Of a stretch of DNA of 64,000 nucleotides, positions 1-63,800 are shown piece after piece. Both the position numbers and the translations under genes were made by a program. Each line of letters starts with the position of its first letter. The first letter of the stretch is position 1. This DNA comes from Paramacrobiotus metropolitanus (taxonomy: Eukaryota > Tardigrada > Eutardigrada > Parachela > Macrobiotidae). The stretch is from contig NW_026570260.1 in assembly GCF_019649055.1 (NCBI RefSeq), positions 682,001 through 746,000 of the forward strand, written 5' to 3'. The notes beneath the pieces were generated by a model. The model was not told the origin of the DNA and ran no database searches. It worked only from the letters and a program-made list of their open reading frames with translations.

Positions 1-2360
1 AGCGTTATCCTGTAACACCTGGTAGGCCGCAACCCCATTCTGGTCAGTGCCGTGGCCGATCGCAGCAGCGACGTCGCTGGGGTGTTCGTTAGTCAGTGCT
101 TCTATGTTATAGTCGAACATAACGGCGCTGTACAATCGTATGTAGGCTTCGGCACTTTCCATTCGGGCTGCGTCCTCGCAGATGGCCTCCTTTTCAAGCC
201 AACCCGCATCCAACGGTTTCGCGCCGTCTTCCCCATTACTGCACACTCGGACGGCATCCGCACGCGTCTCGAAAGCATCCGCTTGGCCCGTTGTCACGTC
301 GGGTATTGGGACGGCGCCGGTCCACAAACTACTGACAAATTCTTCTGAAGATTCCGTCACAAGGAGATCGCCGGATTTAATAGGGATCTCTGCATCGATT
401 ACCCGTGGCTCCACTAGTGGAGCCAGTACTGGATCGAGGCCGGTTGGGAGATCATCCTGGTCGGTGACCTGCGACGTACTGGGAGCGTCGGAATCGGCAT
501 TAACTACGGCATCCGTCACTGCACATTCCATTGGATCTATGGTAATGGAGAGATCCCCGGTGATTTCGATTGTGGATTCTCTAACGCTGGGACCATCATC
601 GAGGTCAGTCACAGCCGTCACTGGACTCACTGCCATGTCAGCAACAATGACTGGAATATTGTCCATAGCTGCGGCCGTGAACTGTGAAACCTTGCAACCT
701 GGATCCAAATCGGCACGGTTCGTTGCTTCTGTGGTTACTGTTTCAATAGCGGTTGGAACAGTATTGGAATTATCATTGTTAACCAACGGACCGTACACCG
801 ATTCCAAGTAAACCTGCAAACAGTCACTGCCTTCCACAGTAGAACTTTCGTCGATTGGGACTCGGTGCTTCGATGCTGGCGCCAGCGAGAGGGGTATGGT
901 TTCGACTGCAACGGTTGCACGGTGCGTCGGCAGGATGCTGACATCAACAACTGATTCTTTAGCGTGGAGTGCGGCAGAATTGTTCGCATCCGCATCTGCA
1001 AAACGGCCCATAAAGCCATCCTTATCAGTGCACACAAACTAAAGTCAGCGTACCAATTTCAGCGGGAATTTCTGGATTTGTCCGTGACGCTGACTGTAAG
1101 AAAATCTCCCGGCTGACCAAGGACAATGTGATGCCCAGCTGTTCAGCAATACTTCCCATGGACTGCCCCTGATTATACAGCGTGCGGATGGCTTCTCTCT
1201 GCGCGGGAGTGGCACGCAGGCTGCTGCCGGTAATCTTGCCGCGCATGAACAGCACATACCGCACTGTGTTCTCCGCCGTCTTCAGGCGCTTGGCTATGCG
1301 GTCGAGTGGGTAGTCTTTGTCGAAGAGCTCCACGATGTCCTCTTGGACGCGCGGCGTAGGCATGCGCTCGCGCTGGGAGGCCTTGCGGGGATTACGAGGT
1401 TGCCGGCTCAATCGGTCAGCGAAGCTCTTGCCGGCGGCGCCCACTACTTTGCACACGGTGGTGTAAGATTTGCCCGCGCGCTCCATAATGGTCTTCTGAG
1501 GTAGTCCCTCATCGAACAGGCGTAGAATCAGAGCTTCCGGTGTCTCTTTGGCCTCACTCGCGGGCTCCGACGGCTGCTTGGACTCAGTCGTTTCATCTGC
1601 AATGCATACGCTGTAAGCAGTGTTCAATTCCAAATTCGCTAAACTTAGCAATGCACACACTTATCCAAAATAAATCAGTTTCAATTACAGTACAGTATTA
1701 TACCATGTGGGGTATGATGTGTTCGATATCAATCGGCGGGCGATGCTTTAAAAAACTATTTTTAAGTACGGTTTTTTTTCAGGCGAAAACACGGATCACC
1801 CGATATATAAAGCGCTGGGCATCGCCGACCGTGGTGCCCACTGGTAATTATATAATTCTACTAGACATAAATTATTCTTATACCCAACGGATCCAATCAT
1901 CCATACCATTATGCGAATCGAGAAGCGCGGCCCCTATTACAGCTGCAGTTCTATGACACGCACACTATTTAGTCCACTTACTGTTAGGCGGGGTTTTGGT
2001 GAAGCTGGTTTCGGACACGTCGGAGTACTGCGGCTCCTCATCGGATCCCTGGTCATCTTCGTCATCCTCTTCATCGTTGTCGCTCTCCACCAGAAGACTC
2101 AAGCGGTTGGCCACCAGATGCTCGATAGTAGCCACCGGCGTCAGCGTCTGCCGAGCGATGGCCTTCCGCGAATAGCCAGAGTTCACCAGTAGCAGAATCT
2201 CCTGCCGCTTCTCCACCGGCAGATCCGCCACGCTCTCCTCTGTACCACAACACAAATCGTCACACTTTTGTACTTACTCAGACCTTAAAGGCTTTCGTAA
2301 CTCAATTCTACGTTCCGTACCGAACTGCAGTTCATCGTCCATTTCCATCAGCTCTGCCAT
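1..2360 (-). CDS. Multi-HTH nuclear protein, incomplete at both ends
   Basis: Function unknown; probably DNA-binding. Exons in transcription order: 2239-1982, 1596-1118, 1038 to beyond position 1. The junction 1982/1596 uses a GTAAGT donor, and phases agree at both internal junctions. Four copies of a ~35-residue helix-turn-helix module can be read: one in the first exon, followed by a Glu/Asp-rich stretch, and three in the second (each with a pattern like LFDxx...IAxRxK...TVxxVL). The last exon is open for about 346 codons to the window edge and is rich in Ser, Thr, Asp and Val, without a domain I recognise. The 79-base intron 1117-1039 would cut the last HTH near its recognition helix, so this junction is uncertain. 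An ATG at 2358-2360 starts a short acidic frame, but its strong donor (2277-2272) is out of phase with the exon at 2239, so the true 5' end is unresolved. The HTH modules resemble the one in the divergent gene at 4469. Confidence 0.65.
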
Positions 2361-24600: not shown

Positions 24601-26712
24601 TTAACACATTTTGAGAACAGCAGTTACGGATTAGGTGGTGACGGGGATGGAGGGAGGGAAGGAAAATCTTCTACAGGCGAAACGGGCGAACTAATGGTAG
24701 CCGACTGGTGGTCAGCCGCTTTATATAGGCGAGTCCAGGTGGCCAGGGATGGGAGAGCGTTTGCTTTTCCCTGGCCAGGGGAGGAACTACTGACCAATGC
24801 GCGCGCGGTGGTCAGCGGATAACTCCGCCTTCATTATAAAGAGATTTCCCCAAAGAAATCTTAATCATAAAGTTTCCGTGTTCCTCCACAACAACTCCTT
24901 AATCGCCATTAGGCGACATATTACTAGTGCAATTGCGAATATTTGGGTTATTCCACGGGAAAATAAGGACAAAAATAGAGCAACATTAAAATTGCCGCAA
25001 CGATATACGTATAAGCATATCATGTATACGTATATACAGTCGTCAACAATGTCATATTACGCGGAAGCGGTGAATGCGAGTATTTACCGCGCGCGGCCAG
25101 TTACACAATGCCCTTTGCCGCGGCCCGGCATTGCGGAAAAAGGGTAAACAGGCCTGACCTTTGGACTGTCAGTCACGCTAAGGAACGCTGTGGCGTTCCT
25201 GGCATACACAAGATGCGGCCGGATATCTACGTCGAACATGCTAGCGGCAACAATTACTAGGATGGCTTGTTTACACGGTCATTAACGAGTATCAGGATTC
25301 CCGGCAAACCGCTGTTTATCCAGGCTGCTGCCTGATCGCTGTTACCGACTGTCGTTCGCGGGGTGGGCGATTTATTAGCAATTTAACCATATTAACCTAT
25401 CCAATGCCTCCTGAATTTGCAACCGGCAAAGCAGAACAAGGCCAGCGTATAATTATGGTCAATTTCTGTGGTGTCCTTATGGGAGATGCTTGAAAGTTGT
25501 GTACATAGTTATAGGTTGCTAGCATTGCATAATCGACGCCATTGATTTCCAATACGGTGAATGTGGTTACAAAACAGCAAACAACAAAGATTAAATATAA
25601 CAAAGTGAGGGAGTTACGGATTTCTCGATCTGCGCCTTGTACATGTATTGTACACATTTATGTACAGTCAATTTTGTCTTTTTTCTCTACACTTTCTTCG
25701 CCACAGAAAGGTGTATTGTCAGCACATGCAATGTTGGCGTATACATGTTCCCGTGAAAAGGTCTATAATTAGCGCTTCCGTGACTGCACATAGCGCAAGG
25801 TGCTCCTTTTTCTTCATTCGATCCCACCGCGCACCGCGCCCATATACATACACGGATCACCGGGAAATTGGCCGGCTGTAGCACTGAGCTGGATCAGCGA
25901 TGTAAAGGGAAAAAGGGAGAAGACTGTCTCAAGACTGCGCCATAGCAGCGGTGTAATACGATTCCCGTGGTGTATGTATTTAATACTGGTCCTACAGTCG
26001 CTATTTAACTGTGGATTCCTATATATTATTATACTACCCACCCGGCTGCTGCAGCTTTGTAGCTGCAAGCAGATGCAGAATTAAGCTGGATTCTGTAAGT
26101 AAAGTGTTCCCTGGCTGCAGTCAAGCGGGATTACTGCCAATCAATTTCCCATCGATCCGGCCAACACGGATTACATATTGACGTCACCGGGATGTATGCA
26201 GCCGTCAGGGCAACGGCGGCGGAAACAACACAGACTGGAAACCAATGATGCACGGCAGCTGCAGGGTTAATTTCAAAAGATGAATGAAATTACGTGAGAT
26301 TCATGGACACAGTTTTTAAAAAACTTAGTTAACTTACTATGTCATATTTACATAATAAGGGCTTGGTAGATTATATCCGTACACTAGGACTAGTAAACTG
26401 TACCGGCACATTACGAGTACTTAAATTCCTAAATCTGCGTATGAAAACTGCAGAGAAATACAGAAACAAGTTCCCCACCATCCACTAATGTTCGTACGCT
26501 GTAGGCGGTGCTTGATCATACGCGGAATTGCGGATCGGCCGGGCTTTGTTTGGTTGCGTTGCACACGCAGCAGCGATGAGCCGCAACATTTCTAGAACAA
26601 AAAGGGCCTGCATCACTGCCACTCCACTGCTCGTTTTCCATTTACTCCGAAGAGTTTTCTCTAACAACGCACTCGATATCTATCTTCCTCTCTCTGCTAC
26701 ACAAACGCTGTG

Positions 26713-27855
26713 ATGGCTATCGCGCTAGCTATGACCCGCATCGTGTACACTCCCGCCATCGTCCTCCTGTCGCTGTCAGCTGTATCCACTCGCTCCACCG
26801 GTGACCTCCTGGATATCTACCGCCAACAGCTGGACCATGATCTGCGCTGGGATGATAATGTGGACGGTTCGTACGACATCGACACCATCCGGACCAAATT
26901 CCGCACGGTCAGCAACGGTTTAGGCTGGATTATGACCTCAACACCGTTGTCCACTCGGAACGCCGTCAAGAACATCCACCAAGAGATGCCGCTATACCAG
27001 TTCTATAACCACCACACCCAGCAAGTCACATCCACTACAGACGCGCCAGAGGTGGAGATTGTTCTGGGCAAGGAAGACGATGAAGATGACAACGAAGAAA
27101 CGGACAATGGTAATGACAGTGATAACGACAGTGGTGACAGCGACGAGGACAATGAAGACACTGACGATGAGGTGACCACCAAGACCACGCCCGCGACCAC
27201 GGAAGCAACTACCCCGCCGCACTTGGTCATCCAACCTGGCCGCGCCATCGACACCGCACCCGCCCGCCTCGCCCACAACTCCGCTCACCTTCCGGCGCCC
27301 ACGTATGACCTGGCCAAATGCACCGATGTCGAAGATCACCAAACCGAGCAGGCGGTAACCCACCTGGCCGTCCCCATCACCGTGGGCGTGGTGGGCTCGC
27401 TGTGTTTTGCTGGAGTCATTGCCTTCTTTCTCCAGCGCCGAGCCCGTGGCCGGAAAGCCAGTTTTGACGAGGAGCACGGCTACGGTTACGGCTATGGGAT
27501 AAGTCAGCCCATTCCTTCTCGAAAGCCCAGCAAAGGCTTGACCTTGGACCTAACCAATGACCGCCTCTTGGCCAAATCGGCCGAAACCTACCATTACCAG
27601 CAGCAACGCCGCAGCATGATATCGTCCTCAGGATCGTCCAGCCGCTCGGGAAGTTTGATGCACGGCCGTGTGCCGGAACACTCCGATTACGACACCGAGG
27701 AGGAGGAGGCCGATGAGGGCGTGGCCACGCAGTACGGCGACTATACGGTGTTCGAGTGTCCAGGATTGGCGGCGCCTGGTGAATTCGAAGTGGTCAATCC
27801 GTTGTTTGCCGATCAGAACGAGAGTGTTATTGAAGTCGTCAGCAGTGAGGATTGA
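26713..27855 (+). CDS. Acidic type I membrane protein, unknown family, intronless
   Basis: One uninterrupted frame of 380 residues; the ATG at 26713 is used (the codon before it is GTG). Residues 1 to about 28 form a signal peptide (AMTRIVYTPAIVLLSLSAVS). The ectodomain (about 30-215) has an N-terminal stretch rich in polar residues. Around residues 112-150 follows a long Glu/Asp/Asn/Gly/Ser run, then a Thr/Pro-rich stalk likely to be O-glycosylated. A single membrane helix lies at roughly 218-240 (VPITVGVVGSLCFAGVIAFF), followed by basic stop-transfer residues (QRRARGRK). The cytoplasmic part has GYGYGYG, Ser-rich and Glu-rich stretches and ends ...VVSSED. I recognise no domain. The GC-rich third positions and an uninterrupted 1.1 kb reading frame support real coding. 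The lack of introns is unusual among neighbours. Confidence 0.8.
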   Translation: MAIALAMTRIVYTPAIVLLSLSAVSTRSTGDLLDIYRQQLDHDLRWDDNVDGSYDIDTIRTKFRTVSNGLGWIMTSTPLSTRNAVKNIHQEMPLYQFYNHHTQQVTSTTDAPEVEIVLGKEDDEDDNEETDNGNDSDNDSGDSDEDNEDTDDEVTTKTTPATTEATTPPHLVIQPGRAIDTAPARLAHNSAHLPAPTYDLAKCTDVEDHQTEQAVTHLAVPITVGVVGSLCFAGVIAFFLQRRARGRKASFDEEHGYGYGYGISQPIPSRKPSKGLTLDLTNDRLLAKSAETYHYQQQRRSMISSSGSSSRSGSLMHGRVPEHSDYDTEEEEADEGVATQYGDYTVFECPGLAAPGEFEVVNPLFADQNESVIEVVSSED

Positions 27856-34187: not shown

Positions 34188-37100
34188 TCAGTGATCAGAC
34201 TTTTGCCGTTCCTTTTTCTTCTTTTTCTTCGGCTTTTTCGACTCTTCGCTCTCGTCGTCAGTTTCCTTTGGGGCCGATCCCGGTTCCGGCAGCTGAGCCA
34301 CCCACAAACTAGTCTTGCGGATTACTTCCACAAGGGACTCCTCGCGGTCCTTCTTGCGGCGCTTCTTTCTCTCGTCTTCTCCGCCCATATTCCGCGAAAG
34401 GTCATCGACAATCTCCATAGCTGATGCGCGAATCTCCAGTTCTTCCGTGGATCCTGTCGATCCAGTCAGACGAACCTGCACCGCCTCGTCAACCTCCTCT
34501 TCTTCGTTAACAATCACCGGCAACTTAATCCCGGCCAGTCCCATCTGTCCCACAAACTGACTGTCATCCACCGGCTCCGTTTCCGACAGGAGACTTACCC
34601 GCTCCTTCTTGTAGTTCCGGTACGGCGCGAATCCCTGTGGTCCCAGCATACTCCCAAACAGCCGCGACTGCGAATGCGACGGACCCACATGGTGCAGTCG
34701 GTGATGGTCGGCGTGCTCGTGAATGGTGGCCAGTTTGAGGGGCCGGTCGCGGGAACCTTCCGGGTAGTGCTCGATGGTGTAGCCGGAGCGATGGTCTTTC
34801 TGGATGTAAAACCCCACCGGTGTCTGGACGCTGAGCTTGGTATGTTTCTGCTTAATGCGCACCCGGCTCTGCGCGGCCCGACCGACATCAGGGACGCAAC
34901 CGTGCACGATGGGTGGGTACAGTTTCTCGATGTCGTCCAAAGTCTTTTGGTGGCGATAGCGCTCCTGACCCTGCAGCCAGTAGGTGTGCTTGTGAGGGAT
35001 GGTGTGACGGTCGTCGAGATTATCGACAGTAGTGTAATCGGGGTAAACTTTCAGGGCTTCGTAGAATGCCTCAGTCAAGAGGATGCGATAGGGGGCGCTG
35101 GCGCTTTCCGCTAATTGGGCTTCTTCATGTGCAATACCTGTACAGTTACATTAAAAACTTACTTGGAGCTATTTTATCTGAAAATCTTTAGTATATGGTA
35201 TAACTGAACAGTTACGCGACTTACTATACTTTGGCATATTTTGAAGATAACGCAGGAGGCATGATAGCCGTGAAACTACACATTACACTTTTCTAGCGCC
35301 TGTTCATACTCAAGTAACGCTTCGAACTTCCACATATTCAAATGCATCCCATACAATACCGCATTCTGAGGACATTTGACTAGGTATAGAACTGAGCTGT
35401 TGACTGACCGGTGACGGTAAATGCCCGGTGGTTATTCCCGTAGATACCCGCCACAGCCGGCCCACACGCCAGTCCAATGCGCACCTCCATACGATCCCAG
35501 TCAATGTCCAGGAGATCGGCTTTCCAGGCCTCCACCAACAGATCTAGCGCTAGCGTAGCCATCTTGGCGGCGTACTCCACGCCGCCACTGGGAATGGCCG
35601 CCACAATGGTTACACTGTCGCCGTTGGGATGCAGTCGGTGGATGTTGCGGTCCGGCGGCAGAACTTGGTCTAAAATGTGGAAGAAGCGGTTGGCGAAGTA
35701 CAGTACGGCGTCTCCGTGGGCAACGGCGCACAGGCCGTCATAGTTGACCAGCGAACAGTGCAGAACATAGACCACCTGATGGAATTTGGGTTCGATGCGG
35801 TGGCCTTCCTCCTCGGCGTCGTGCACCCACTGGGTGAGGAAGTCAGCCTCGGTGCGCGATAGTTCCTTGATCAGCTCGACGGTCTCCTCGCTGTTCTTGA
35901 TGATACTGCGCTTGTAATGCTCGATCTGGGTGCGGGTGTTGACGATAGTCAAGTCGGCCAGACGTTTCATCTCCGAGCTGGTAGCGCGCAAGATGTTGCG
36001 CAGCTCTACCATCTTAGGTCGCTCCTGGGGATCTGCCAATCAGTCAGCTATGTTATGACGATCGTAACATAAGTTTGCTATTTAACATCATGATTAATTG
36101 GTGTTGATAGATGCGCCGCTATATGCAAACTTAACCCACCCGCAGACCAGCCGGCTTTCATGATTTCGATGATGGATTTCGGTATATTGAGAGCTATCTG
36201 CTCCGGCTCTTTAAAGTCCAGAGGACGGATCGGACGGATTTCACGTTTAATCATGGCAAAGAGTTGCTCATATGACATACTGTACGGTATATTATTATAC
36301 TCGTACGGAAGATCTCGCGTCATCACTTCGAAGACGATCACCGCGAAACTGCAAAAATCACCAATCAGCCAAATTTGCATCGCTTTGACGTTCAGAATTT
36401 CTGCCGTAGCTCTCCGATGGCCTTTTGTCAAAGCGCTCAGTATTTAATCCAGTTTGAATTACGTTGCACTTTGGGTGACCTTTGCGAGCTATTGTAAATA
36501 CGAGTTTTACAAGTCTGACCTGTAAACGTCACCCGCCACCGTCGGCAGATGCGGTTCGTCCCGGCTGACCGCAGTTAAGATCTCCGGCGCCGACCACAGC
36601 AGCGGCGGAAAGTAGACTTGCTCTTCCTCCGAAGACAGATGGGCGTTCAGGACGCGCTCGCGGTTGCGGAATTTGTGCATAAGATTCTCGATTTCGTTGA
36701 CGTGCCTGCAGAAGGCGGAGCTGAGATGAGCAGTACAGCTGGTACAGAGGACGCTGTGAATTGCTGTACCAATCGGAGATACGTGTCGTCCAGTCAGCTT
36801 CCAGGAACACAACGGAACTGCGAAGGTTGCCGTGCACGAATCCGCGAGCATGGAGATACGTCAAGCCCTCGGCGATGCCTTTCACCATGCCCACTTTGAT
36901 GGGCGCATCCAGTTCGTTGCGCTTGTTGTCTAAAGCGGTGCGCAGATCACCCAGCGGACCTAAGCAATGTCAGTCTTTGGTAACTTTGCCCATGGAACTT
37001 GGTTCGTTGCATAGTTTGTTCGTGCTTGATATTCTGTCTGATCACAAAACGTTTTAATTTTGTACTTGATAATACGGGATTGCGAACTTAGTCACTGACG

Positions 37101-40100
37101 GTAAGGTAGTGGAAATTCAAAATCTCGCTTAAACAAGTGGCACTTTCTGACAATGTTGGCGGCATTTTGTCGCGCCGAGCGACAGATGACAGTCAGATGT
37201 CACATAACACCGCGACATCTGTTGTGCCAGCAAGTCACGAGCAATCGATCGCCTTAATTAAGCTCTATGGGCTCTATGGGCTCTACTTATCGCAACTGTT
37301 GCGTAACCGTCGGCCAAATGACAATGGGACAAACCTTACAGAACTGACAGACTGCAAAGCAGACTGACTGGAAGATGGAGTGCTCCGTCAAGCCGAAGAA
37401 GTGCACCACGTTGGGATGGCTGATATCGCGGATCATGCGCACCAGGCGCAGTTTAACGCCGCCACCATGGACATTGGTGAGGAACATGTCCAGTCTGGTT
37501 AGCATGACCACATCGGCACGGTACTCGCCCACGACGAAGAGAGGACGCGCGTGCCGGCCCTCTAAATATTTGCGGAAGTGCATCATGCAGTGGTACTTCT
37601 CGCGCGAGGCTTTGATAACGTGGATGCTGTCGTCGGGAATGACGTACAACTGGCGCATGATGCTGTCCATGGTCTGGCGGCGCCGTTTTAGCACAATGCA
37701 GAACACTGTGACGAGGATAATAATGAGGACTAAGGAAAGGACTGCTGCCACTATTGGCCTGAAAGTGTAACACCAGCTCTTTGCAAATTAATTCAGCTGA
37801 AAAATATAACTTATATGAACAACATAAATTTGCTATATTTTTATAAACTTAGCAAATGAGAGACCATCCCGTGAGCGGCACATTCGATGTTAAAGGGACC
37901 GCAAATTCACTGCGGGCACGTATGCATAGATTACTGAACAGGGCTTAAAAAGCGTTTCTTAATTTTGTGAAGAAATAATTTAATTTAAAATTTCGTAAAT
38001 GCATACGTACTGGGTACTTAAGATATTAGATACAAAATATTTGTAAAGCATGGCAGATAATTGTCAGGTATGGCGAATTAGATGAATGTTTAATTCATTG
38101 CAATGAACTTTACCATGGATCATACGTGTAGACCTCATCCTGCAGCTTCTGCAGAAGCAAATCCCAGACGCTGGTCAGATTGTCGGGACCGCAGCGCATA
38201 TTTTTCAACTGACTCAGCACTACGTTATCGTAGGCGCTCTCGTTGAGGATGTAAAAGTAGTGCGCATGGATAATAGCGTGGGCTTCCTGGCTAAGGTGCA
38301 CCCAGCGCAGAAAGCGAGCCGTCTCCACCTGACTAAGGCAGTCCAAGGCAAGAGTGCCGCTGGGTGCCCCGCCATAGACGATCAAGTTCACCACACTGGC
38401 CGGTTGGTAGGTGCTGTCCACGCCGTATCCCATACAGATGACGTCACACCCGGTACCCGCCAAGCTAGACCCATCCACCTGCAGTGGAGGGCCTTAAACC
38501 GCTGACCTTTCAAAATAATTTTCTAATTGGGCTTCATAAATTTCTTAAAGTAAACTGGTTCTTCGCTGAACCAGCCGAAGAAATTTTAAAATACGAGAAA
38601 ACTTTTTGGTACGATAAGTGCACAAGTACCGTCTCGGCACTGAGTTCCACAAGATTCCCGTGGGAATCGGGCACGGCGCTGAGCATGCAGTCGCCCACCT
38701 CCGGATGACAGTTTTTCGCGTAATCAGCATAGCTGACTAAGCCGATGGAGTTGTTGGCGGCGATGACGCCGCTGAGCACGCCCAGCGATGTCAGACCCGT
38801 GTGGTAGCCCGTTTGCGGCGCGGGCGATGAATTGGCAGCCATGACGTTGTTCTTCCATAGAAAGGGATACACGGTCACCTTGGGTAGATCGGCCGGCATG
38901 TACCGGTCGATCAGCTGCGTCATCCAGTAGACGGCCACTTCACTATCGACGGTGGTGGCGTCCTGGCGCACCCATACGTTGATGGTGTCAGCCGGGAAGG
39001 TGGGCAGGTTCAGGCCGACGGTGCGCAGTGATTGGTCGCTCCAGTTCACCACCTGCAACATGGATGACCGGTTTCACACCTGTTGATCATTTGGGTTGTA
39101 TTCTTACAAGTCAGGAATGCTAGCCCTCGCAATTAATACGACTGCTGAAGTAGTAGGAGAGTAACGATCCCAGTTGCGGAAGCGCCGGTAATATTGTGAA
39201 CTGATGGTGCCATGATCAGCGCGATCTCTCGGACTAATGCGCGGAGCTGGGCTCAGCCGTGTCAACCCTTTTTGGCTGCAAGTTTCCTGTTCTCGTTTGA
39301 AAGCAGGACAAGCGACTGGTGCGGCTATTTTTTTTAAAACTTATCGTAATCGTGTCGTGATCGCACTGCTATGTGACTAAGTTTATAACCATGGATTGCG
39401 AATTCTAGTGGGATAAGGTGGCGATATTCCGCCATGGCTAGTCTCTAGCAGCTCGGCCGCTACAATATTTTATCACTTACACCCGCACTGTACTGCAGCA
39501 ATAAAACGAGCGTGGGCTAATGCGATCCTACACCTCACAGAGGGACTATAGACTGATGTCTCCTCAATGACGTGGTTTATCATCTACATCGATTAGGCCT
39601 CACCATGGTCAGCCACTGCTTTTCGTTTCCTTCACCACAAGCACAGTATATGCAACGGAGTTTGGGGCAAGCCACCCTGATTTGATTATAACTGAACTGA
39701 TGTTAAAGCACCGCCTAACGTTGACCTTTTCATTTTTTTTAGCCAGTAATTACATACTATCGTGTATCGTCGTGCATGTCCCCATCAACCGTTAGAGCGA
39801 TCAGCGCCGCCGAGGCATTCGGCACCTCCAAATCGCCAGCGCCGACTGATCATCGCCTTTCCCTATGCGCTTTCTCCTCTGTCTAATTGTGTCTATCGAT
39901 TCATGAATTCATGACCTGTGTCGATAAACATAATATACCGGTAACTGCAACGATTCAGTTTAACGGTGCAGTGGCTTTGGCGACGCAAATGCGAAATACA
40001 GGTCGAATAATGACGCATTATTGTAAGATCGTGGTTGTGTAAAACAGGATGTGTGCGCTACCAAGTGAGCACAAGCTCCTTCGATAGAGAAGGAGATAAG

Positions 40101-40737
40101 CTAGAGTCAGTGCTGCTACTTATTACCTAATGACCCGTCTGCCCGTAGGGACTTGCTGTCATGACCCTCGTTATTTCATACGCCAGCAGCTGTACATATC
40201 TCACGGCGTTGTTCGACTGGTAATTTTCCAGTGCTATGCTATCCTACGGTTAATTGCGTACTGCCATTGATGACCTTTACGTCTATCGTCGTGGCGACTG
40301 ACCGTCAGATTGAAAATGCCGACAATCTGCTGTGCTGTGAGGGACAATTGCGGGGTATTGCGCAGCGTGTGCACCAACGCCATAGCGTCGACGAAAAGCG
40401 GAAAGACGACGAGATGTCGGTTGATGCTCATGTAGGCCTTCTCTTCCGTGGCAAAGAAGTAGCCGCGCTTAACCACAAAGTTTAGCGCTGCGCTGGTGGT
40501 CGGACGGGACGGTGGAAACATGATCTGGGCAGCGCCGCCGTTGCCCGTTAAACACTCGTAGCTGGTGTTGATGCGGTCGCGGACCCCGCGGGCGGTACGG
40601 TACGCCGACAGCAGGTCGTCCATTACCAGACGGTACACGTGCTCGCCGCGGCCCCGCAGTGTTGTGTATGTCGTTGTATTGAGTGTCATCATGGCGAGGA
40701 CGGGGACAACGAACAGGCTAAGGATCAACAACTCCAT
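34188..40737 (-). CDS. Receptor guanylyl-cyclase-like protein with PstS-type ectodomain
   Basis: Nine exons, all in phase: 40737-40303, 39052-38630, 38478-38114, 37758-37340, 36959-36770, 36705-36520, 36348-36140, 36032-35409, 35137-34188; 1266 residues. A signal peptide (ELLILSLFVVPVLAM) starts it. Residues about 30-400 form a type II periplasmic-binding fold: GNGGAAQ (65-71), VFPLFVDAMALV, LSLTAQQIVGIF, VNWSDQ, INVWVRQDATT and SIGLVSYADYA follow the order of PstS-like phosphate-binding proteins. A membrane helix (about 409-431) precedes a kinase-homology domain with HGNLRSS, SDW in place of DFG, and LWSAPEIL. Next come DPQERPKM and a class III cyclase domain (exon 8 and start of exon 9). 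Its catalytic residues are largely replaced: first metal Asp to Ser, guanine-contact Glu to His, and the Asn and Arg of the NTASR motif to Glu and Leu; one GD is kept. It probably binds a small ligand but makes little or no cGMP. The tail (about 280 residues) ends in a Lys-rich run. Confidence 0.85.
39053..40302 (-). other. Large first intron of the receptor gene
   Basis: 1250-base intron between the exon ending in the PBP motif GIFNLT and the exon starting VVNWSD. It is the longest intron of this gene; no gene or repeat recognised inside, so it may carry regulatory sites. Confidence 0.7.
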
Positions 40738-48203: not shown

Positions 48204-51200
48204 ATGCCCCGTACAACTCGCACGCAAGAGAGTGAAGCGAGTTCCTCCCAAGCTACCGCAGGCACCCAGCGCACGCTGCGGGGACGTGTGCGTCCGCAGG
48301 AAGCTTCCGATGACGAGGACGCAACGGAGACCGATTCTACTCCGAATGTCGTCCCTACCGCGGCCGTGGAGGTGTCGGAGATTGAGCTGGAATGGATGGA
48401 GGAGGGCTGGATGGACCTGCCCCCCATCCCCGTGGCAGGGGGGAGGGCGGCCGCGGAGGAAAACGAGCTGGAGAGCAACGCCACATTACTGGTTACGCTC
48501 ATTTTGATGTGCCATCACAGCCGCGGCGTCATGACCAATAATCGTGAGTTGCCCACTACACACATCTGTCATGATCTGTGTGCCCAGTATTTTGTATTTT
48601 TTTTCTTACTTACGAAGTTACGAGTACAGTACCTGAGTACCAACAGTGTAATTTCATGAGGGGTATTAAAAGCTCTGGTACCAGTATGTTATAGTGTTAG
48701 GGTTAGCGAAGTCAGCTGTCAGCATTTAACGAATCGGCGGATTTTTCTAACGTGTTCGTTTCGAAATCATAATGGAGACGTTTTTACAAAGGACATACCA
48801 AAAGTTTTTTTGCCTATTTTGCCTGGTTTCCAGTTGATGTGATTCATCAGCGATATATTTTTTGTTGCATAGCCTAATCTCTTACCTATCGAAGAAAAAA
48901 ATAAATCTAACTGTCGAAGAAGAACGAACCAGACGAAACATTATTTAGACGGTGATGCTTTGGGCAGCCTAACCACTCCCTTTCCAAAAATTCAGTTGTT
49001 TTATTGCCACTTCTCTCCCTCTCAACCTTTTTACCTATAATTTCTAATACTGAAAGCTTACTATGCCTTAGCCATTATCGTGATAACGAAACGTTTCTAA
49101 ACTTTCACAGATTAAAATAATAATTTTATGTCTCCAAGTCATCAAGTTTTTTGATTTTCCTCTTTCTTGCTATCCCGAACTTCGGATCCGTTTCCTCAAT
49201 AAAAACTTTACCCTCGACCCACTCCAGCGCATAGTAGCCATGATCAAATTTATTGCCAGTTGGTAAACCGCAAATTTTTTTTCTAGATTTTCCATATTTT
49301 TGCCATCTGGAGACTGAGAAGTTTCTTTTTTTGACAACTGGTAACTGACAGTTTTAATTCTTTTTTAAAACTGGTAGGGGCTGCCTTTTTTCGTTTTTGA
49401 TTTACACTGCAAGAGCGAAGAATTCTGAACATAAAAGCGTTTTTTGCTTCTCGGGGAATAAACGAGGAGAATTTTAATAATAGTACAATGCTGCGAGAAG
49501 ACCAGAAATTAGGCTGCCAGAAGCCGCCAACAGTCTTTGTGGCGAATTCCCCAACCCGGATTGAGCAAAACCTAAATTACAATTTTCATTAATTAGTTAA
49601 TGAATGACATCAGTAAAAATATGGGTGGAAAGAGTACAGTGAGTTTGTGGGGGAAGATAAAAAATAGAGAAAAAAACTTTTGGTATCCCCTTTGTATTAG
49701 AACTACGAAATATAAATTTTATTATTAAAATAAAAATTGCATATAGTCGATATAGATATACTTCCGGTCTTATTAGTTTCCAGTAAACTTCAAAATAGTA
49801 GGTGACTTCAGACTTGATGGTTAATTCCACTGAATTTAATTAATTACGTACATTATTACATAGCATTGTTGACACTTGTTATACGCGTTTACGATCCCGA
49901 AAACATCGTAATGCTGTAATTATGGAAAACCTTCCGAGAAAATGCTTTTTTGAATGTTTTTTGTATTTCGTGGTGTTATTATGTTGATCGTTTTCACTAG
50001 GACTAAAGAACGAATGGCAGAAGCTGTCCAACCGACCGAACGTGGACTTTGAGGCGGTTTTCAAACGTTCGCGTAAACTGTTGCGCGAGGACTTCGGCTT
50101 CGTCCTGGCGGAGATCAGCCCCGATCAGCCGGTATTCCCCATGGACAACGCGAACCTGTACCTGGAGGAAGGCGCTCAGGAAAATAAAGGCCTTGCGGAG
50201 GACGGGCCGGTTGACACACAGGACACACAAAAGTCCGGCAGACGACGCAAGCATACGGCGATTCATTACATTCTTATCAACAGCACCGATGCCGCTAAAT
50301 CCTTCCATCGCTGCGGACCTCGGACTCTGTTCAGTGCAGATGCGGTGGAGGAAGTGGAAGCGCTGGGCGCGGCACGACATACATTATTGACCCTGACGCT
50401 GCTGTATATTTTCATGGAAGGTGGGCATATTTTGAGTTTTCTTCCAACCCTTGTGATGACTTTGTCTCATTTACCAAGAATAAGCATCACATGCTTCTTG
50501 TGTTTAATGACATTTTTTAAATTCATAAATGCAGTTAAAAATCTACGTAGTGGAGGCTGTTGCATCAACAATACAAAATGTTCGACAGAATGAAAGTGAT
50601 TTATCGTTAAACAAGAATTGAAAATGCGGTAGAGGAAATTTAGCTGATGAAATTTTTCCAATCTCAGCACTATATAGCAGTTCCTATCTCTGTGTAGGTG
50701 GAGATGTGCTGTCTGATTTAATCTGGAATTTTCTGAAGCCCTTCGGATTCGACGTAGACCTGGTTCACCCTCATCTGGGGAAACTGAAGGATTTACTCCA
50801 GAGGGATTTTGTCAAACAGGAGTACCTGCTGCAGGCGTCGCGCCCAAACGCCGGCGGTGAGCAGAATTACTACCGATGGGGCGCCCGGGCCGATCTGGAA
50901 TTCAGTCGACTGGCCATGCTGGACTTGTACGCTACGTATACATACTTTGCACAAGTTTACTGTATATTGTAACTTATCAAAGCTAATAATATAAGATTTT
51001 ATCGCCATTAAATGCCGTTTATCTGTTGCTTTACTCGACTTTTGAACATTTGCTTACAGTTTGTACCCCTTTTGAATGTTACTATGCTCCTAGTTACTAT
51101 CTGCAAGAATTGTTTTAATTCGAATAATGATTGACTAAATTACGTTTCGGTTCTATTAGGTGCGGACGGATCTTCGGTGTGGATGCGGACAATGTCTCGT

Positions 51201-51418: not shown

Positions 51419-54400
51419 TTATTCTGCCGCTATTTGTGGAAGCGGTTGCTTGAGTGACTCCGTGATGTCAACAAAATCCGCTTTTTTCTCCTGATTGTCC
51501 TGTTGTGTCTGAGGCTTGAGAAGAATCTTGATGGGACGTGGTTCGCATAAGCATTCACCGGCATCATTTTGCAGGGAGAGCGAAGTGTCGGCGGTCAGCC
51601 GCACACAGCACTGCCGATTCAGGAGGTGACGCTCATATGCCGCGGCCAACGGGTTAATGACACTGCGCTCGATCTCGTGACGGATACTACGCGCTCCTGT
51701 AGCACATAGTATTAGAAAATAAAAGGCTTTGGGGAACCGTTAAACTGACGTGAACGATAAAAAACTGGAAAATTGTTTTGTAATCAAATGAGAAAAGAAA
51801 ACAATCGTTTAATAAAATACCATAGTGGATGTTGTAGCCATCCGCGATGGCTTCGACTAAACCGGCATCCCATTCTAACTGAACGTCGTGTTTTCGCCGG
51901 GCGCGATCTTTCCAAAAGGTCAGATCTTTGTCGACCAACTGCAGGAGTTCCCCGTGCGAGAACGGCACAAAATACACGATCTCGTTGATGCGGCCAAGAA
52001 ATTCATCGCGCCGAAAGTGACGTTTTAGTTTCGGTTCCACCACTTCGTCCTTGAATTTCCGGGGAAAGTGAATGACCTCGGAGGACGGCCGGAGATCACT
52101 GGCTGCGCCTATCAGTAAGTAAGGATGAATGCACAACATAAAATACTGCAATATTTTAAGCGGTAATAAACAGTAATATGTTCATAAGCAGCATATAGGT
52201 AAGCGGAAGGGAGCAGTTCAACTGGCGAGACAATTTGACAAAAAAATTAAGTTCGGGTGAAAGTAATAACCAACCGCGCATTGCCTGGTCTTCCTGGCGC
52301 ATCCTCACCGCGAATTCGGCAATCTCATCGGTGGCCAGATTGCTCGTCATAATGAAAATAGCCTCCTTGCACTCCACCGTCTTGCCGCGGCCATCGGTCA
52401 GGCGACCTTCGTCGAACAGCTGCAGCAACACTGTCAGAACATCCGGATGCGCCTTGTCCACTTCGTCGAACAGGACCACCGCCCCCGGGCTTTCCTTCAG
52501 TTTCTGCGTTAGCTGTCCGCCCTGTTCGTGACCCAGATAGCCCGGCGGTGAACCGATCAGCTTGGACACCTCTACGGACAGTCGAACACGCTCGCGTTAA
52601 CTGCAACCTACGTTTCGCTGTATATAGTATTTTTTAAAAACTCTGGGCAAATCATTTTTCACATGCTAATAAATTAACAATTTAAAGCTGGTACCGTGCT
52701 TTTCTTGATACTCGCTCATGTCCAGTCGAATAAATCCTTTCTTCTGGTCTTTGTTGAGATAGAGCGCGATCTGCTTAGCTAGCTCGGTTTTGCCAATTCC
52801 CGAAGAGCCGAGAAATAGCAACACCAATGGGTGATCGTCGTCATACCTGCAAAAGGTTATGTCCAATGACTTCCGCCTCCGCTCGATCAGTATACTACGG
52901 CTATTACGATTAACAACAGGAGGATACTACACAAAAGAGCGCTCGATATGAAAAAGATGAAAATAAAACAAAAATCAAAGGATCATCACTTCCTTTGTTA
53001 TTAAAAAATCATAAAGCTACCATCCGCTTTCGCGCCGGCGTATAGCCGCCGACACAGTGGCGATGGCGGTTTCCTGGCCGACCAGTGTCTGCTTGAGGCG
53101 CTCTTCCAGAGGGAATTTGCTGCGCTCCTCCGCCTCACACCGCCGCTGGAACTCCTCTCCTCTAGCCACCGCCTGCTCCAGCATTTCTTTAATCCGCGGT
53201 TCCTTGGCGTATTCCAGACAGGTGTGACCTTTCTCGTTTATGATCAGCGGATTGCCGCCCGCTTGCAACAACAACTGCAGCCACAAACATGCACAAATTA
53301 CTGTAGATGCAATTCGAAGTTAGGTCAGCGGTATAAGAAGCCATTAGCTATAATGACACATAATTATATATATACTCCGTACTCGTAATCTGGAAGCGTA
53401 GTCTTCAGATATTACTAACGATAAATCACATTGACAGTAACATGCTTTCAATACGGTGAATGACAATGAATTTTTGCACACCGGATAGCAATTTTCTACA
53501 AGTGTCTGTACCAAATAACCACGAAAAAATTTGTAAAAATTCGAGACCGGAAAACACTCCACTGACGATGCTGAATTAGTTAACAAAACACCTACTTACC
53601 GTGGTGTGGGCGCACCTGCACAGTCTCCAGATCATCGGCCAGAGCGGCATAATGCAGAGCTGTGCAGCCCTTAAAACTAGCTCGCGTATTCAATCCCCCG
53701 CTGAAGTCCTCTTCCCGGATCAGAAGAATCTCCATCGGCTGCGACTTCCGGGCCTCCGATACGGCGTAAACATTGTTGAACTCATCCTGCGCATTGGGAT
53801 CGGCGCCCGCCTCGAGAAGCAGTCGCGTGGCCGCCGCGTTGCCGTTAGCGGCGCTGACGTGCAGGAAGGTCCAGCCAAGAGGATGCACCGTGTTAATGTT
53901 CAGTGTTTCGTCCTGCAGGAGCGCAGCCGTCTCAGGCAGACTGCGTGGTGATTTGCAGCAACGGAAGAGAGCGCATTCGGACGAGGCGGGCAGGGAGGGA
54001 TCCTTGGGGGCGTTGCCGTTGTTGCGGCTGCTGCTGCAGTGAGCGTAGACGATACCCGAGAAGGCGAGACCATATTTCAAAATTGTCAGCGTCTTCTTCA
54101 GTTTCTTGTACCAGCGGCTATCATCTAGGTATGTGCACGCAGGATAACTTTCGACTTTCTCAATAATAAAAAAAACTGCCCGATGTCGCTCAAGTGTTAA
54201 AAGCAGGATCAATTTTGTATAATCTTTTGTCCGGTGGTTCCTGATTTCATTTTAGGATAATTTTGTTAACTTGAGGTTATTATACATGATAAAAAAAATT
54301 ACAAAATCAAGCAAAGTTCAAAAAAGATCGCAAAAAATCACTTAAAAGGACGTAAAATTAAAAGTCAGCTTAGAGGAGTTCTACGATGTAATCATGTAAG

Positions 54401-60838: not shown

Positions 60839-63800
60839 ATGGCTGGTTGTTGTGGCGGCGGCGATGGAATGCAGGCGGTGCGTTCGCCTGCGCAGTGCAT
60901 GGATGCCCCACGGGAGAAGCTGATGTACGTCTCCTGCATCCAGTCCCCTCAGGGACTCATCGCCGGGCTGGTCAAGGACAAGAAGCCCGATTATCTGGCC
61001 ACGGTGGATATCGATCCTGCTTCGGCCACGTTTTGTCAGGTTAGGATTTTAGGTTCTAACAATCTAACTCCAAACACTAACAGGCTAACCGTTAGAATTG
61101 AATAGGTAATCATCCCCAGTCTTGTTATTGCTGTAGCTTATCATTTATGGTTATGGTCCTGGAAATAACTTCATTTGCTTACTGCAATACGGGCACCACT
61201 GCCTAATGCGCTTACAGTACTCGTACAGAACACAAAACGTGACATACACAACTTGTCCGAAAAATAAAAAGTCACTCCATCATACTATCATAGCCATACA
61301 GTGTCTCTGTTTTTAAATTAAAATAAGCACGGCACTTATGGGTAGTTTGCAGCTTCCTTGTTATTTTTCATTGAAGTTTTGGTTACAGTTTTAATTACAG
61401 TATGTCTAAACAGTTTACGTGTTTGTACTGACTGTGAGCTTAAACTGTTTTACGGCGACCGTATGAAGTGTGCTGGCAGGTTGTGCATCGCTTGTACATG
61501 CCGGATGCTGATGATGAGCTGCACCATTTCGGCTGGAATGCCTGCGTCAGCTGCCCCAACACTCCACGCCGTTACATTGTTCTGCCGGGCTTCTTCTCGG
61601 GCAACATCCACATTGTGGACGCCACGACGGACCCGTGTCGTCCGCAGTTGATTAAGGTACGCATCTGCGTCTGTTGACATTTTTCTCACAATTTATCCGA
61701 ATTTTGCGGTAAGGGTTAAACCATTTTCCAGTCAGCACTTCTGTATTGTTTGTGCCTTTAACCATTTTGATGGCATTTTTGCAGTACTATAATGCAGTGT
61801 AAATATGTGAAGTAAAAAGATGGCACTGTTACATTGTACTTATCTGACTTCAAATACGCGGCTTGAAATTAGTCGGTTTGTTTAACCACTAATTTCATCC
61901 ATTAATTTTACCGTGATGATTAACCATTGAACACTACCGGAAAATTAGTGGATGAAATGCTCTGGAAGTAAAAGTTGTAGAACATAAAAAATGGATAGGT
62001 AATGCTGAGTTATTGACTGTAAACTCCTGCTGGACTTCGTTTGATTATTTTCTTTGATTGGTGCAGCAAATCAAAGGCAAAGACATCGCGGAGAAGTACA
62101 ACGTCAGCTATCCGCACACGGTGCACTGCATTCCCAGCGGCGACGTGATGATCCACACTCTGGGAAATGCCCAAGGGGACGCCCGTGGCGCTTTCTACCT
62201 GCTGGCCGGGAACACGTTCGAGCCCAAGGGTCTGTGGAACTCCGGGACGGAGGCCATTAAGGGGCATGACTTCTGGTATCAGCCGCGGCATAACATCATG
62301 ATTTCCACCGAATTTGGAGCGCCCAACAAGTTCACCAAGGGATTCGACATCAAGGACGTTGAAGCCGGTTCGTAAATTAGAGCGGTACTGACGCTGTAAG
62401 CCCGTAATTGTACTTCGCCTACTATAACTTTTGGTTTGAATCTAGTTATTTGATTTCCAGATTTAGTTTCCGATTTCAATTTGCAGTTTTACTGAATGCC
62501 TGTTCGTTTGTGATCGTGTTTTGATTGTGAAGATTGATGAGCAAGTATTGTTAGGTTAATATGATTTAGCAAAACTGCAAAAGGATTATAAGTACTAACA
62601 TACCTGGGTAAAGGATTATGTTGGAGTTTATAAAAAAAATCTTCTGCAGGGTATTATGGGTCGAAAATTCATTTTTGGCGGTGGACGGAACGAGAGCTTT
62701 TCCAGACCATCGATTTGGGCGACGACGGCCGGATTCCCATGGAGATCCGCTTTGTGCATAATCCGCAGGCTACCGATGCTTACATTGTTACCGCATTGGG
62801 TGCTTCCATTTTTCACGTCCGCTTGAACGAGGTGGGCAGCGGTAGTGACATACATTGTGATGTAATGGCTGGGCGGATGCCCAGACGGAAAATTTTGAGA
62901 GAGCGATTAATAATGTCTCGTGCCAAGAACTCTGGACTCTTGCTCGTGCTCATCTGTTCTTCGGAGCAAGAAAGTTGCCAAATTAAGATTTCTGACTTCA
63001 GAACGACCAAGATGATATTAGTTTTTTATTTAATAATCGGGGCAAGGCAATAGTGTTTGTACTGTTTGCGTTTAGGATAAGAAATGGGAGGCCAAAGCGG
63101 CAGTGAAGATCCCACACAAAACCGTTTCCCACTGGGCGCTGCCCTTTGTCCCGGGTAACTGAGCACTAATTGACTATAAATCTATAATTACAATACCTTT
63201 GGGTTTGGTCACCTATTCACATACAACAACTTGAAAACTTCCGCGGTACGTGTTCTAATTATTTCTCAATCTCAGCTTTAATTACGGATGCGCTGATTTC
63301 CCTGGACGATAAATATCTCTTTGTGACCTGCTATCTTCACGGAGATGTCCGCCAGTACGACATTTCCCAACCGGATCAGCCGCGTCTTGTCTCACAGGTG
63401 CGCGGCGGCAATGAAACTTTGTATTTTTGAAATTATAAAAATGTCCTGGTAGATTTTCTCAGATTATAGAACCTGTAAATTGCTGATATTTGAATTTCCT
63501 GAAACCTTTCACTGTTAATGCAGATCTTTGTGGGTGGTGTTATCGTGGATGATACTGGTGTCAAAGTGGACCGGGACGAGGAGCTTTCGCATCAGCCGTC
63601 GAGAACGGTTATTAAAAACCGCAAAATTCAGTAAGTGATACGCAATGGCAGTGGGTGATTTCACAGTAATGATTGTCGTGGTGTGTAGCGGTGGTCCACA
63701 TATGATCCAGCTGAGCCGCGACGGAAAACGCTTGTACGTCACTGTGTCCATCATTACGCCGTGGGATGCGCAGTTCTATCCAGACTTAATCAAGTGAGCG

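Follow-up and report, generated by a model that had tools for sequence, protein, structure and literature searches.

Among animal receptors, the ionotropic glutamate receptors have a ligand domain of the type II periplasmic-binding-like kind; they are ion channels, not cyclases. For the receptor guanylyl cyclases, PMC5225109 counts 27 members in C. elegans, including direct sensors, and presents DAF-11 and ODR-1 as obligate heterodimeric receptor cyclases in which a partner is needed for the active site and each monomer contributes essential catalytic residues. PMC1592074 places PBP-I and PBP-II domains among the extracellular sensors used in signalling by prokaryotes and eukaryotes alike. PMC5531438 describes 284 proteins, 276 of them from tardigrades, as a family that carries a receptor ligand binding domain; that tardigrades have expanded such receptors is thus already published.

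Here we analyse a gene found in a stretch of 64,000 nucleotides of the genome of the tardigrade P. metropolitanus (hereafter the window). A sequence-only reading of this stretch had proposed a receptor with an ectodomain of the type of PstS carried on a guanylyl cyclase chassis, and had stated that no animal receptor of such a combination was known to it. This agrees with our literature search of freely accessible journal papers, in which no PstS-type guanylyl-cyclase receptor was found. The observation itself was confirmed and its interpretation was partly supported; the family is larger than that reading could see, with nine loci in the genome.

Results

The window gene encodes a protein with the layout of a receptor guanylyl cyclase

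The window gene is made of nine minus-strand exons which, once joined, keep one frame for 1266 codons up to a stop (Table 1). Its eight introns, 64-1250 bp long, are all of the GT...AG type; because GT-AG was looked for when the junctions were picked by eye, this feature is partly by construction, but the unbroken frame is not. The junctions 40303/39052 and 38114/37758 proposed earlier agree with our re-derived model, and the six motifs quoted in support of PstS kinship are all present in the product. The earlier claim that nine exons in phase form one gene is borne out by the in-frame chain and by the recurrence of the arrangement at nine loci.

Table 1. Coordinates of the window gene, of neighbouring open reading frames and of related loci (positions given without a contig are those of the window)
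Feature	Position	Strand	Content
Exon 1	40303..40737	-	aa 1-145; start codon, signal-peptide-like N-terminus (by eye); first part of PstS-like ectodomain, PBP_like_2 match beginning at aa 103
Exon 2	38630..39052	-	aa 146-286; middle of PstS-like ectodomain, with VWVRQDATT and SIGLVSYADYA
Exon 3	38114..38478	-	aa 287 to first two bases of codon 408; ectodomain end, aligned with relatives
Exon 4	37340..37758	-	transmembrane stretch, juxtamembrane region, start of kinase-homology domain
Exon 5	36770..36959	-	kinase-homology domain, FCPLGDLRTAL ... HGNLRSS
Exon 6	36520..36705	-	kinase-homology domain (in-frame joining and Pfam)
Exon 7	36140..36348	-	kinase-homology domain (in-frame joining and Pfam)
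Exon 8	35409..36032	-	end of kinase-homology domain, linker, most of cyclase-like domain
Exon 9	34188..35137	-	end of cyclase-like domain, long charged C-terminal tail
C-terminal tail	34188-34420	-	ends in lysine run, KKPKKKKKKERQK
ORF	1028-1660	-	HTH_38 and HTH_23 helix-turn-helix matches
ORF	26665-27852	+	NPDC1 (Pfam)
ORF	49988-50590	+	MAGE (Pfam)
ORF	52159-52596	-	AAA_2 (Pfam)
ORF	62634-63050	+	SBP56, selenium-binding protein (Pfam)
Window gene	34188-40737 of the window, on C40	-	PBP-type receptor
L001-L004	C71:556500-574500 and 634000-652500		tandem receptor genes, two near-identical pairs
L005	C4:362500-371500		PBP-type receptor
L006	C39		PBP-type receptor
L007, L008	C22		PBP-type receptors
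L018	C127:149900-158500		receptor cyclase matching the window kinase-homology domain

The protein carries the elements of a receptor guanylyl cyclase. An ectodomain is followed by a hydrophobic stretch recognised by eye at about aa 411-433, by a kinase-homology domain (Pfam PK_Tyr_Ser-Thr, 514-756, E 2e-26) and by a cyclase-type domain (Guanylate_cyc, 825-988, E 7.7e-13). Residues 17-408 contain eight N-glycosylation sequons; the 833 residues of the stretch 434-1266 contain none. Exons 1-3 have a GC3 of 0.75 and the other exons one of 0.70, and intron GC is 0.43. Combined, these features indicate that the locus is a coding gene whose predicted product has one coherent topology. A lysine-rich open reading frame, comparable to the lysine run in the tail of the window protein, is also present downstream of the cyclase-like exons of L007.

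The four Pfam-matched open reading frames flanking the gene are ordinary animal genes and give no sign of a bacterial insert. A further one, at the start of the window, bears helix-turn-helix matches and resembles a fragment of a Tc1-type transposase.

The ectodomain belongs to a PstS-related family

Taken by itself, the window ectodomain shows a resemblance to PstS that is weak, though above chance. The Pfam profile PBP_like_2 matched residues 103-257 of the isolated ectodomain with 28.0 bits for a cut-off of 27 (E 2.3e-6); against the whole protein the score was 25.3 bits, below the cut-off (E 1.5e-5). ANF_receptor had no match in the window protein in a Pfam scan to E 1. An ectodomain of the proposed type, with kinase-homology and cyclase-like domains downstream, is upheld. 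Aligned with a profile of six PstS sequences (hhalign), the ectodomain scored 35.2 over 231 columns (E 5.1e-4, probability 31%), the best of 30 shuffles reaching 20.2 and the reversed sequence 15.2. With the profile of the ectodomains encoded on contig C71, it scored 31.4 (probability 16%) over 65 columns, the best shuffle reaching 21.7. Among NCBIfam profiles TIGR02136 alone was matched, at E 0.13, and the PstS profile TIGR00975 had no match to E 1. VWVRQDATT, in exon 2, is the counterpart of VRRADGSGT in PstS.

The kinship of the window ectodomain with PstS is established through its relatives, since the strong evidence comes from them and not from that ectodomain alone. A profile that combines the divergent ectodomains of the window gene, L006, L007 and L008 aligned with the six PstS sequences over 317 columns at E 1.3e-23; against the C71 profile it gave E 1.1e-27. 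Both E-values are those of pairwise comparisons and not of a database search. The three other divergent ectodomains are 21-23% identical to that of the window.

In total, nine PBP-type receptor loci were found in the P. metropolitanus genome (169.8 Mb), on five contigs. The PBP_like_2 search of the genome gave 8 matches in six genes other than that of the window; it missed the window gene and the two loci on C22, which were found by protein search. The TIGR00975 search gave 16 exon matches, all within seven of the nine loci, the window gene and L008 being missed. No free-standing PstS was present among the genome matches to either profile, which is not proof of absence. At all nine loci, kinase-homology and cyclase-like exons lie downstream on the same strand. 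PBP_like_2 was matched by all six family ectodomains scanned, with E-values from 2.5e-20 to 1.1e-5, L007 lying below the cut-off.

One member, L004, matched residues 2-310 of the 315 of TIGR00975 (E 1.3e-50, 172.2 bits); it matched PstS entries of the PDB with E-values of up to 2.2e-29 and is 29.7% identical to an annotated bacterial PstS over 97%. The matches to TIGR00975 were graded in L005 (E 1.1e-37, 129.8 bits), L006 (E 9.2e-27, 93.9 bits), L007 (E 4e-20, 72.1 bits) and L008 (E 3.5e-12, 46.0 bits), and the curated equivalog cut-off of 205 bits was reached by no family member. The ectodomains of the four tandem loci on C71 are near full-length PstS homologues, and the window gene forms with L006, L007 and L008 a second subfamily, apart from the C71 type. 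L006 is without a complete model, its second intron having given no acceptable junction and its exon readings having been joined by hand; in the models of other paralogues the second- or third-ranked junction was sometimes taken.

With 86 matches, ANF_receptor exons are no rarity in this genome, and one may ask whether an assembly or annotation join brought two genes together, or whether an ANF-type receptor cyclase was misread as PstS-like. Against this, ANF_receptor had no match to E 1 in any of the six family sequences scanned, and the ectodomain exons, split by introns, continue into the exon of the transmembrane stretch. Because the architecture recurs at nine loci on five contigs, it is very unlikely that two genes were joined by chance. 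We consider this explanation exceedingly improbable, and the anatomy and family assignment of the window receptor close to certain.

Genome-wide, at least 200 Guanylate_cyc matches (150 of 849 candidates being scored) and 86 ANF_receptor matches were recorded, which fits a probable large expansion of receptor cyclases. A receptor cyclase other than those of the nine loci, L018, matches the kinase-homology domain of the window protein.

The phosphate pocket and the cyclase active site are kept in one receptor type and degenerate in another

We took seven residues of E. coli PstS to be its phosphate contacts: T10, S38, D56, R135, S139, G140 and T141. In a scan of prokaryotic contigs at least 596 stretches were matched, 574 of which encode relatives. 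D56, R135, S139, G140 and T141 do not vary across the best 80 of these 574; at S38, 79 have S and one has T, and at T10, 57 have T and 22 have S, one being unaligned. This conservation supports the choice of contacts. All seven contacts are kept in L001 and L004, and the same pocket motifs were read by eye in L002 and L003. Beside the contacts, all 79 prokaryotic relatives aligned at F11 carry F and the C71 loci carry M or L, a change that could matter. In L005, D56, R135, G140 and T141 are kept, S38 and S139 are lost, and T10 lies outside the model. The alignment of the pocket is uncertain in the divergent rows, where L006 keeps D56 and G140, L007 keeps R135 and has S at T10, L008 keeps D56 and S139, and the window gene keeps one contact of seven, R135.

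For the cyclase domain, we scored six positions that we assume to be the catalytic ones (two metal Asp, purine Glu and Cys, catalytic Asn and Arg). All six residues are present in the four C71 copies. The L001 cyclase, which matches NPR1 at E 6.9e-73, was compared as hand-joined pieces; the spliced reading differs from them at one residue, outside the six scored positions. The L005 cyclase retains three (both metal Asp and the Cys); Gln stands in place of its catalytic Asn and Leu in place of its catalytic Arg. L006 retains one, and L007 and L008 none. The window domain reads Ser, His, Asp, Thr, Glu and Leu, so that the second metal Asp is the one residue retained; the first metal Asp is replaced by Ser in exon 8, and the catalytic Asn and Arg are replaced by Glu and Leu in exon 9. 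As aligned here, the C71 type has retained its pocket as well as its active site, and in the subfamily of the window gene the two are degenerate. L005, with a partly changed pocket and a partial active site, is an intermediate member.

Frame breaks occur in three of the four C71 copies, in the kinase-homology part of L002 and of L004 and in the ectodomain of L003; these may be assembly errors or true damage. No frame break was seen in the parts of L001 that were modelled. Such breaks in relatives, together with the degeneration of both sites in the window gene, speak for a reading of the window locus as a paralogue on its way to becoming a pseudogene, which would explain both losses. We regard this as quite improbable: the nine exons are open across 1266 codons, GC3 (0.75 and 0.70) stands well apart from intron GC (0.43), and L006, L007 and L008 have likewise lost catalytic residues and kept a cyclase-like reading, Guanylate_cyc being matched in L007 and L008 by Pfam. 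Since it is common to these three relatives, with the cyclase-like reading kept, the catalytic loss is old.

The same losses could also reflect retuning, the window receptor binding a ligand of its own, another small molecule or a peptide, in an altered cleft and signalling through the kinase-homology domain or the tail without production of cGMP. The ectodomain still reads open over a long stretch, with eight sequons and high GC3, the kinase-homology domain is well matched (E 2e-26), and the four divergent ectodomains differ as widely (21-23% identity to that of the window) as receptors with different ligands would. Most pocket positions are changed in the window gene, however, and we judge this reading unlikely, though far from negligible. 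It is not exclusive of a role of the window gene as a partner, with which it is compatible.

Origin and selection

In a tree of the kinase-homology and cyclase parts, the 7 PBP-type rows were split from 12 other receptor cyclases at 93% ultrafast bootstrap, and at 80% with the kinase-homology part alone; L002 and L003 were omitted from this tree, which has long branches and fragmentary rows. To judge from their positions, an ANF_receptor match precedes 7 of the 12 other receptor cyclases. The tree would fit a single event in which a receptor guanylyl cyclase acquired a PstS-like domain by fusion and was then duplicated. The best prokaryotic segments are 27-33% identical, and no close donor of the PstS domain is visible among the best 80 relatives.

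Between L001 and L004 (544 codons) pN is 0.163 and pS, which is saturated, 0.755; between L002 and L004 dN is 0.017 and dS 0.066. By these values the C71-type ectodomains are under constraint. For the window gene and the C39 locus, pS is 0.82 and synonymous sites are saturated.

Discussion

The explanation that best accounts for the whole, and to which we give a probability of roughly 0.6, is a family of single-pass PstS-related receptors in which the window gene would have become a pseudo-cyclase partner. The parts of its product are, in order, a PstS-related ectodomain of the predicted type II Venus-flytrap kind, a single transmembrane helix, the kinase-homology and cyclase-like domains with a linker between them, and a charged tail. 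This product would neither bind phosphate in the manner of PstS nor make cGMP as a homodimer, and could instead serve as a non-catalytic partner or scaffold for other receptor cyclases. This role is suggested because both sites were lost within a long and well-kept reading frame; considered separately, it falls a little short of even odds. The ligand of its ectodomain has most likely been changed or lost.

The sequence-only reading had seen in the window gene a possible environmental sensor for a small anion. With one of seven phosphate contacts and one of six catalytic residues, the gene does not bear this out; the proposal fits the C71 paralogues instead. The C71 type is a candidate phosphate-gated cGMP receptor, though three of its four copies are frame-broken, since the pocket contacts are kept in L001 and L004 and the cyclase residues in all four. 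In such a receptor, phosphate or a similar oxyanion would close the ectodomain cleft of a receptor dimer, the dimer would rearrange, the change would be transmitted through the membrane and the kinase-homology domain, and cGMP synthesis would be switched on. The family might then consist of direct extracellular phosphate receptors of the C71 type and of pseudo-cyclase co-receptors, the window gene and its three relatives, that tune or diversify them; as a statement about the family, this is a tentative proposal, nearly as probable as its negation.

If it holds, environmental or body-fluid phosphate would directly set cGMP in an animal. The sensing of extracellular phosphate by animals is, as far as we are aware, not settled, and we know of no comparable dedicated animal receptor for phosphate. 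A bacterial phosphate-catching domain, contacts included, is found here on an animal cGMP receptor with complete catalytic residues, and relatives with a decayed pocket and decayed catalysis sit beside it in the same genome. The type II binding domain is an addition to the known ectodomains of receptor guanylyl cyclases.

Compared with animal receptor guanylyl cyclases such as NPR1 and the GCYs of C. elegans, the window protein has the same order of ectodomain, one span, kinase-homology domain, linker and cyclase domain; it differs from them in that its ectodomain belongs to the PstS-like type II family and not to the ANF_receptor type I family, and in that its active site is degenerate. To the ionotropic glutamate receptors the family is likened in the type of ligand domain. 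DAF-11/ODR-1, as presented in PMC5225109, offers a precedent for partner-dependent cyclases; the window protein differs in retaining one of six residues, and its partner is hypothetical. The likeness to bacterial PstS, the phosphate-binding protein of the Pst transporter, is strongest in the near full-length homology of L004 and in the pocket kept in C71, whereas the family domain sits within a receptor, has introns and stays below the TIGR00975 cut-off, and the window ectodomain is without most of the contacts.
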